Assembly: GCF_004087835.1 (NCBI RefSeq)
Contig: NZ_CP035119.1
Location: 248,001-312,000 of the forward strand
DNA from: Halorussus pelagicus
GTDB lineage: Archaea > Halobacteriota > Halobacteria > Halobacteriales > Haladaptataceae
Reading direction: 5' to 3'
DNA length: 64,000 nt
Each line of letters opens with the position of its first letter. The stretch's first letter is position 1. Of the stretch, positions 1 through 50,451 are shown in pieces. Both the position numbers and the translations under genes were made by a program. Below the pieces are notes generated by a model. It ran no database searches. It was not told where the DNA came from and worked only from the letters and a program-made list of their open reading frames with translations.

Positions 1-176
1 GCACAGCACCGCAACCGCGGGCCACACGCCTCCCCAACCGACTGCGGTCCTCACTCCGTTGCGGTCCTCGTCCACCGGCGGACAAACCGCGTCCGCCGAG
101 CCGTCGTTCGCATCCGCTCACGACGACCTCGCGCGGATGGGCGTGACCACTTGCGGGTCACGCTCGCACGCGCCGG
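1..176 (+). repeat. Hairpin-rich dispersed element, copy 1 (left end may be cut by window)
   Basis: This non-coding block shares order and motifs with blocks at 14592-14771 and 24360-24540 (reverse). It has the core CCTCCCCAACC at 29-39, a GCGGTCCTC pair, then three inverted repeats. H1 at 77-97 has stems GGCGGAC/GTCCGCC. H2 at 102-125 has stems CGTCGT/ACGACG. H3 at 141-163 has stems GCGTGACC/GGTCACGC. It lies just past the 3' end of the leftward tRNA-Ser gene. The stems are read directly from the sequence; the function is unknown. Confidence 0.8.
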
Positions 177-14441: not shown

Positions 14442-14591
14442 AGTCCGAGTTCGACGGACGCACACTTGCCGGTTGTGGCAGGTCTCTGGGAGAGACAATT
14501 CGCACAATTGGGGAGTGACGTTTCTTGCAGAGGAAGGAAAATCGCTAACTGAAAAGTCGAGTAGAAGCTAGCGTCAGGCTTGAGCAAATCA
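14442..14591. other. Upstream region of the aldo/keto reductase gene
   Basis: This part of the 410-base gap before the ATP-grasp gene holds no convincing gene. It must contain the promoter of the leftward reductase gene. The rest of the gap is repeat element copy 2. Confidence 0.5.
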
Positions 14592-14771
14592 GACCGCAAC
14601 CGCACAGCACCGCGAGAGCCACGTCCTCCCCAACCGCTTGCGGTCCTCACTTCGTTGCGGTCCTCAGCCCTCGCGCGCTGATGGCGCGACACGAGGTCGC
14701 GCCGTCGGACAAACCGCGTCCGACGAGCCTGCGCGAACGTCCGTTCGCGCAGACGCCAGCGCGCGCCGGAA
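14592..14771 (+). repeat. Hairpin-rich dispersed element, copy 2
   Basis: Same layout as the block at 1-176. The core CCTCCCCAACC is at 14625-14635 and a doubled GCGGTCCTC follows. Inverted repeats: H0 14683-14703 (GGCGCGAC/GTCGCGCC), H1 14704-14724 (GTCGGAC/GTCCGAC, with the same AAACCGC loop as copy 1), H2 14729-14752 (perfect 11-bp stems CTGCGCGAACG/CGTTCGCGCAG). The outer hairpin H3 of the other two copies is missing, and H0 is extra. The element ends with GCGCGCGCCGG. Confidence 0.8.
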
Positions 14772-24359: not shown

Positions 24360-24540
24360 CGGCGCGCGCTGGCGCGACGCACGGCGGCGTCGCGCCAACC
24401 GCGCGAGGTCTGCACGAGCGAAGCGAGTGCAGGCTCGTCAGAGCTTGCCTCTGGCGGTGGATGACCGAGCGACTGGAAGGAGCGACCGAAGAGGTTGGGG
24501 AGGTGTGAGGCCTGCGGTTGCGGTGCAGTACTGTGCGGTC
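24360..24540 (-). repeat. Hairpin-rich dispersed element, copy 3
   Basis: The reverse-strand copy of the element at 1-176 and 14592-14771. The core is at 24493-24503 (GGTTGGGGAGG on the plus strand). Inverted repeats: H1 24439-24453 (CAGAG/CTCTG), H2 24410-24432 (CTGCAC/GTGCAG outer stems), H3 24371-24396 (GGCGCGACGC/GCGTCGCGCC). The shared word GACGAGCCTG links H1 and H2 as in copy 2. A reading frame through it (24272-24508) is rejected as a gene. Confidence 0.8.
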
Positions 24541-24694
24541 ATGATTGGCGTCGGCAATAGCTAGCTCTACCACGTCTTCCACTTCTGAGCAACCTCTCCG
24601 TCGTCTCCCACTCCGAGACCGACACGGACCACGCAAAACTCCTGAACCCACAGGACGACAACCCCACCACGCACACCCCCGACGAACCACCGAG
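24541..24694. other. Unassigned sequence between repeat copy 3 and a zinc-finger gene
   Basis: There is no gene with a proper start. One plus-strand frame (about 24580-24680) reads LLSNLSVVSHSETDTDHAKLLNPQDD without start or recognisable family and could be a gene relic. Confidence 0.3.
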
Positions 24695-50043: not shown

Positions 50044-50451
50044 CTAGCTACTGGTCGCGGAGCGCGCACCGCACGCTTCGCACCGCAACAACTGCGCTCC
50101 CTGTTCTCGTTCGAGTTTCGTGTCCGGTAGGCCACACTCCGAACAGCGGACGAACTTCTCGACGTACTCGTCGAGGGCGTCCTCGATGCGGCGCTGGCCG
50201 AACTCGCCGGTCAGGCGCGCGCGTCCGCTCTCGTCGATGTGCGCGCTAGTCCCGAGGTCGTTCTGGAGGAACTTCAGAACGTGGTCCTCGTCCCTGCCGA
50301 GTCTGTCGAGCGTGTCCTGAAAGTTCTCGTAGACCGTGACGTTGCCCTCTTGGCGCACGTCGGCGTCGGGCACGTCGAAACGGTCGCCGCTGCCCTCTCT
50401 CTCGGGCGTCTCGTCCATTGCCCGTTCGAGGTGGTCGTCGTAACCCTCCAT
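50044..50451 (-). CDS. Translation initiation factor 2 subunit beta (aIF2-beta)
   Basis: A 135-residue factor of the initiator-tRNA-delivering aIF2 complex. It has an N-terminal helix, then the core VTVYENFQDTLDRLGRDEDHVLKFLQNDLGTSAHID and LTGEFGQRRIEDALDEYVEKFV, and a C-terminal zinc ribbon CSEC...CEAC that contacts aIF2-gamma. Length agrees with other archaeal beta subunits. It is transcribed alone and tail-to-tail with the zinc-ribbon gene. Confidence 0.95.
   Translation of the reverse strand: MEGYDDHLERAMDETPEREGSGDRFDVPDADVRQEGNVTVYENFQDTLDRLGRDEDHVLKFLQNDLGTSAHIDESGRARLTGEFGQRRIEDALDEYVEKFVRCSECGLPDTKLEREQGAQLLRCEACGARSATSS

Follow-up and report, generated by a model that had tools for sequence, protein, structure and literature searches.

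The element at 14567..14767 (forward strand) of the window, by which the whole analysed stretch of 64,000 nucleotides is meant, belongs to a dispersed family that is best explained, at roughly even probability, as a non-coding mosaic extragenic palindromic family of Halobacteria, REP/BIME-like and vertically retained, that depends on structure by way of its folded purine strand. Its members are mosaics of fixed anchors and exchangeable palindromic cassettes; the hairpins are under pairing constraint, and a ladder of mismatches within them is conserved while the pairs change. So explained, it would be an archaeal REP-like family in about a third of sampled Halobacteria genomes. Nature offers one fold here in hundreds of variants, each a natural experiment that alters the pairs and leaves the mismatches as they are, and strand-specific structure, a binding factor and a gene-boundary role thereby become open to direct testing. 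The family accounts for recurrent GC-rich palindromic intergenic sequence in Halorussus, Haladaptatus, Halorubrum and related genomes.

Anatomy, gene context and distribution

The three shared gene-free blocks that a first-pass annotation had reported, with their named H1 and H2 stems, were all confirmed by reading the window sequence, in which the exact core CCTCCCCAACC has three matches. Copy 1 (1..174, forward strand) is truncated by the window edge, with its 5' box GACTAGC just beyond it (L005), and comprises a C-rich leader (1-28), the core (29-39), palindrome cassette A (40-72), module B (74-126), anchor CTCGCGCG (128-135), hairpin C (141-163) and end anchor GCACGCGCC (166-174). Its module B contains H1 (77-97), in which GGCGGAC (77-83) and GTCCGCC (91-97) enclose the loop AAACCGC, and H2 (102-125), formed by CGTCGT (102-107) and ACGACG (120-125). 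A tRNA-Ser(TGA) on the minus strand at 222-306 directly adjoins this copy. Copy 2, the element under study, begins with a GCTAGC box (14567-14572) followed by the C-rich leader, the core anchor CCTCCCCAACC (GGTTGGGGAGG on the purine strand; 14625-14635), cassette A (14636-14668), anchor CTCGCGCG (14670-14677), hairpin C (14683-14703), the exchangeable module B (14704-14752) and end anchor GCGCGCGCC, which extends up to 14767. Here module B, 3' of hairpin C, consists of the AAACCGC-loop hairpin H1, with arms GTCGGAC (14704-14710) and GTCCGAC (14718-14724), and a second hairpin with the 11-bp stem CTGCGCGAACG/CGTTCGCGCAG (14729-14752). Copy 3 (24361..24565) lies on the minus strand, reading from a GCTAGC box (24565-24560) through the core (24503-24493), ladder cassette A (24492-24460) and module B (24455-24411) to anchor CTCGCGCG, hairpin C and an end anchor that reaches 24361; on that strand its H1 is GCCAGAG (24455-24449) with CTCTGAC (24443-24437), and its second hairpin is TGCAC/GTGCA (24431-24411). 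The parts had been described as following the same order in all copies, but the H1/H2 module precedes hairpin C in copies 1 and 3 and follows it (as the hairpin CGCGAC..GTCGCG) in copy 2.

On the C-rich strand, the general order is the GCTAGC box, CTTCAGGCTTGAGC or CTACTGCCGACGCC, a C-rich leader of CCGCAC-type repeats, CCWCRC, the core, cassette A, an optional module B, CCTCGCRCG, hairpin C, the alternative site of module B and RCGCGCC. The fixed anchors are the GCTAGC box, the C-rich leader, CCTCCCCAACC, CCTCGCRCG and RCGCGCC, and the hairpin cassettes between them are exchangeable; by simple count, module B (~50 bp) is 5' of CTCGCRCG in at least 7 copies of this genome and 3' of it in at least 8. 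Elements are ~150-300 bp long, and each contains several different hairpins. The two ends of a single copy differ (GCTAGC.. and ..RCGCGCC), and paired copies form long inverted repeats: the unit of Haladaptatus often consists of two inverted copies placed tail to tail around a spacer of 40-60 bp, and head-to-head pairs are present in several Halorussus species. G-skew extends over ~110 bp to the left of GCTAGC, and in several species G-rich minisatellite-like tandem repeats lie directly upstream of this box (L107, L117, L068, L070). CTAG is rare in the window (28 occurrences in 1-64000, at 65% GC), and most copies of the element start with GCTAGC; a role as a CTAG methylation hub was rejected because the copies contain, by extrapolation, only a few per cent of genomic CTAG sites. 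An isolated near-palindrome at 50044, CCAGTAGCTAGCTACTGG, resembles two 5' boxes of the element head to head, with no core nearby.

The 3.49-Mb genome contains 57 exact cores (27 forward, 30 reverse), all of which were retrieved and inspected, versus 4 matches to the reversed pattern; the dispersed core is not a product of chance. A genome-wide covariance-model search, as the first-pass annotation had proposed, found approximately nine further full-length copies with a near-core such as CCTCCCCAGCC. Thus the three copies reported at first are real but belong to a family of ~66 in this genome, roughly 85% of which retain the exact core. All 57 exact-core copies are intergenic according to a simple codon-bias gene caller. 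Their flanking genes are convergent in 23 cases, divergent in 12 and tandem in 22, and the 34 intergenic gaps of at least 100 bp in the window are 5 convergent, 15 divergent and 14 tandem, from which it follows that convergent gaps are favoured. The 57 copies obey no strand rule with respect to neighbouring genes (10 ++, 12 --), and the suggested terminator role fails accordingly: function as a cis terminator, 3'-UTR element or riboswitch in mRNA was rejected because orientation to genes is not strand-consistent.

Within the taxonomic family, the core is present in 26 of 28 genomes, with up to 136 copies, and has zero matches in G019 and G010; copy number within the genus runs from 0 (G019) through 4 (G017) to 136 (G013), and G002, G011 and G013 carry 75-136 copies. 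Across the class, 102 of the 292 Halobacteria genomes, representing 33 of the 77 genera, contain the composite of core and CCTCGCRCG; the reversed control has no match in any genome. This distribution bears out the first-pass annotation's mention of similar blocks in other haloarchaea. Hosts include Halorussus, Haladaptatus, Halorubrum, Halosimplex, Halococcus, Halolamina, Natrinema and Natronorubrum; among the matches listed (80 loci), 4 are scattered bacterial, consistent with chance.

Covarying hairpins and the strand that probably folds

From core to anchor, 206 unique cassettes were collected, with their interiors playing no part in selection. Among the 65 unique cassettes of 33 nt, positions 14 and 20 are complementary in 60 (21.5 +/- 3.7 expected from shuffles) and positions 10 and 24 in 43 (20.5 +/- 3.4 expected), and pairs 3-31, 6-28, 7-27, 10-24, 11-23, 14-20 and 15-19 all score above shuffles (z 3.4-10.5). 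Positions 4-5/29-30, 8-9/25-26 and 12-13/21-22 are nearly always TC/TC in the 39 ladder-type cassettes, in which the apex is TNC. On the purine strand this is a ladder with a four-base period, in which two covarying pairs alternate with tandem GA/GA and a GNA triloop forms the cap. A UNCG tetraloop on the C-rich strand was rejected because covariation of pair 14-20 (z 10.5) fixes the apex as a triloop, and a kink-turn because the tandem G.A is there but the three-base bulge is absent. A second type of cassette, TGCGNTNC..TGCGNTNC, has offset pairing with single mismatches by inspection. The same TC/GA ladder hairpin (for example CGCTCGCTCACTCCCTTCGGTCGTTCGCTCGCG) was also observed in a second dispersed family, CTTTTGCTGCG..hairpin..GGCAAAAG..ACACTGCGCTCCTC, that is without the CCTCCCCAACC core (L367, L369-L373; G000:C1 near 687132, 2206241, 2421772, 646625, 642480 and 142766).

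An alignment of 22 sequences, limited to the ladder type with four atypical 33-mers excluded by eye (the z-scores of pairs cover all 65), has invariant GA columns, 80.8% paired positions versus 57.5 +/- 2.1 when shuffled, and a covariation of 0.687 versus 0.247 +/- 0.030 when shuffled and 0.01-0.18 in slid controls. Double changes affect eight of the nine pairs, giving 52 double-changed paired cells versus 17.8 +/- 3.4. Covariation far beyond both kinds of control supports the selection on structure that the first-pass annotation had proposed. RNAalifold finds the inner ladder unaided; the two most distal ladder pairs are weak in the TCC subtype. Most copies have retained their stems: 119 of 144 unique sequences of hairpin C (3 when shuffled) form 7 bp or more, and the arms of module B are paired at 197 of 294 positions versus 100 +/- 9. 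Covariation is also present in the stems of both. The compensatory G-C to T-A change in H1, on which the idea of pairing kept through sequence drift was founded, is real, but whole cassettes are often substituted in one piece and not base by base, and exchange of cassettes accounts for much of the variation.

The purine strand folds more stably than its complement in 143 of 190 cassettes as RNA and in 144 of 190 as DNA, with an RNA stability z of -1.87 versus -1.01. Residual mispairs on the purine strand favour G.T over A.C by 31:14 overall, composed of 23:14 in the ladders and 8:0 in hairpin C. Both the stability and the bias favour one folded strand over a cruciform; thus, as against the cruciform DNA offered at first as one alternative, folding of just the purine strand is likelier than a symmetric cruciform. 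The strand data could fit RNA and single-stranded DNA alike, and the G.T bias could be partly mutational.

Conserved sites and competing explanations

Different species keep copies at orthologous sites and in a single orientation, although the cassettes inside them are replaced. An element is present at the same place and in the same orientation as copy 2 in G014 and G024, and as copy 3 in G024, G013, G018 and G015; some other species have no element at these sites. Comparison of 24 copies of G014 and 50 of G024 with those of this genome, requiring both flanks, identified 21 orthologous sites, and the orientation is identical at all 21. Left-flank identity at these sites is 0.61 versus 0.56 for random pairs, and CTCGCRCG is retained at 18 and RCGCGCC at 19 of them, neither anchor having been used for selection. 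The cassettes at one orthologous site are often wholly different, which points to exchange between copies. G017 has no clear remnant at two sites common to G000 and G014; G014 and G017 have a common gene insertion at the copy-3 site, and so these two element-less sites of G017 are probably losses. The gene at the copy-3 site of G017 (L108) and G014 (L109), where other species have the element, appears by eye to be GNAT acetyltransferase-like. The swings in copy number within the genus and the missing remnants in G017 imply that the element is dispensable.

A selfish non-autonomous mobile element (MITE/REPIN/PATE-like), the transposase or recombinase of which needs a folded single strand, is a possible explanation of the family, though a less likely one. 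Such an element would suit the range of 0 to 136 copies among close relatives, the empty orthologous sites, the REPIN-like inverted pairs (tail-to-tail in Haladaptatus, head-to-head in Halorussus) and the insertion-like occurrence of module B at two different places, but the identical orientation of all 21 shared sites argues against it, as do the lack of a burst of near-identical copies and of an autonomous version. No clean target duplication is seen, in flanks too diverged to define one. IS200/RAYT-driven mobility was rejected because PF01797 (Y1) does not track copy number and is absent from G002, G011 and G013, the genomes with 75-136 copies. An IS605/TnpB origin as PATE or omega-RNA was rejected because none of the 4 TnpB in G000 is near any of the 57 copies and G019, with 7 TnpB, has zero copies. 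Viral origin was rejected on matches in 3 of 2.9 million viral contigs and none in annotated phages, and plasmid spread because only two Halorussus megaplasmids match copy 2.

It is improbable that the copies are transcribed from the purine strand, whether as genes for small structured RNAs or as elements of RNA processing. Sustained compensatory change, the greater stability of this strand as RNA and the preponderance of G.U over A.C among its mismatches (8:0 in hairpin C) would be expected of an RNA, but the C(GNA)G loop and tandem G.A ladder suit DNA equally, orientation to neighbouring genes is inconsistent, base composition reveals no zone that is AT-rich like a promoter at a set distance from the element's right end, and an Rfam search of the window matched only the tRNA (at 223-305) and not the element. 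Far less probable still is neutral palindrome turnover, in which template switching or gene conversion makes perfect inverted repeats with no structural selection. Palindromes are mutational hot spots, and wholesale cassette swaps at one site are as expected of recombination between copies, but conservation is highest at the TC/TC mismatches, with varying bases in the pairs, and template switching would repair these mismatches inside covarying stems; moreover, the anchors persist at orthologous sites despite saturated flanks.

For the preferred explanation, a vertically retained mosaic family, the purine strand would act in folded form, either exposed in single-stranded DNA or transcribed, and a host factor may recognise its shape and anchors and not the letters of its stems. 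Recombination or gene conversion would swap cassettes from one dispersed copy to another. Most tentatively of these steps, the element may have its place at the ends and boundaries of genes, favouring convergent pairs and leaving promoters clear, and may serve there as a local structure in DNA or RNA, for instance an insulator or a processing block. A shape-only code is also conceivable, though less likely than not, in which a GA-ladder hairpin of more than one repeat family would be read by a dedicated host factor at dozens of gene boundaries; the ladder as proposed consists of two covarying pairs and a tandem sheared G.A step, repeated and capped by a GNA loop, in single-stranded DNA or RNA.

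Relation to known repeat systems

REP-like extragenic elements are well known in bacteria. Their REP/BIME/REPIN families place tens to hundreds of palindromic units between the genes of one genome, mosaic and in inverted pairs, with conserved mismatches in their stems and a preference for gene 3' ends. REP/BIME are associated with RAYT (Y1 family) transposase, and are marked by an influence on the stability or termination of mRNA or by binding of gyrase, IHF or Pol I. The archaeal family resembles REP/BIME in its many extragenic palindromic copies, mosaic build, alternating orientations, inverted pairs, conserved stem mismatches and preference for gene 3' ends, but is longer, with several hairpins per unit, unrelated anchors, the tandem G.A ladder and no RAYT/Y1 correlation. 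Mini-hairpins of the d(GCGAAGC) type and tandem sheared G.A are known as isolated stable motifs; the C(GNA)G triloop and tandem GA/GA steps recur on the purine strand of the element, but in a repeated ladder of four-base period with covarying steps.

The first-pass annotation knew of no described family, and none was found in libraries or in literature on haloarchaeal repeats, archaeal REP, Halorussus repeats and the core, a search in which coverage of subscription papers was light; as far as this literature shows, no account of the family or of an archaeal counterpart with the same anatomy was found. The nearest described haloarchaeal elements are PATEs and SMRs, which differ in defining features. 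PATEs of Haloquadratum have near-terminal palindromes in common with IS605-type transposons and make strain-specific insertions (PMC3119063). Like the present family they are haloarchaeal, non-coding and palindromic, fall into heterogeneous families and have no terminal inverted repeats, as in the single-copy form here (PMC3119063), but the present family has no TnpB or Y1 linkage and its sites are conserved between species; the comparison made here, which was between species only, saw element gains and losses as well as the 21 shared sites. SMR-A of Haloquadratum is ~110 bp long with prominent terminal inverted repeats and commonly >95% identity (PMC3119063). Such short repeats occur inside palindromes of other elements (PMC3119063), recalling the two places of module B, but the stems of module B, at half that length, are variable and covarying.
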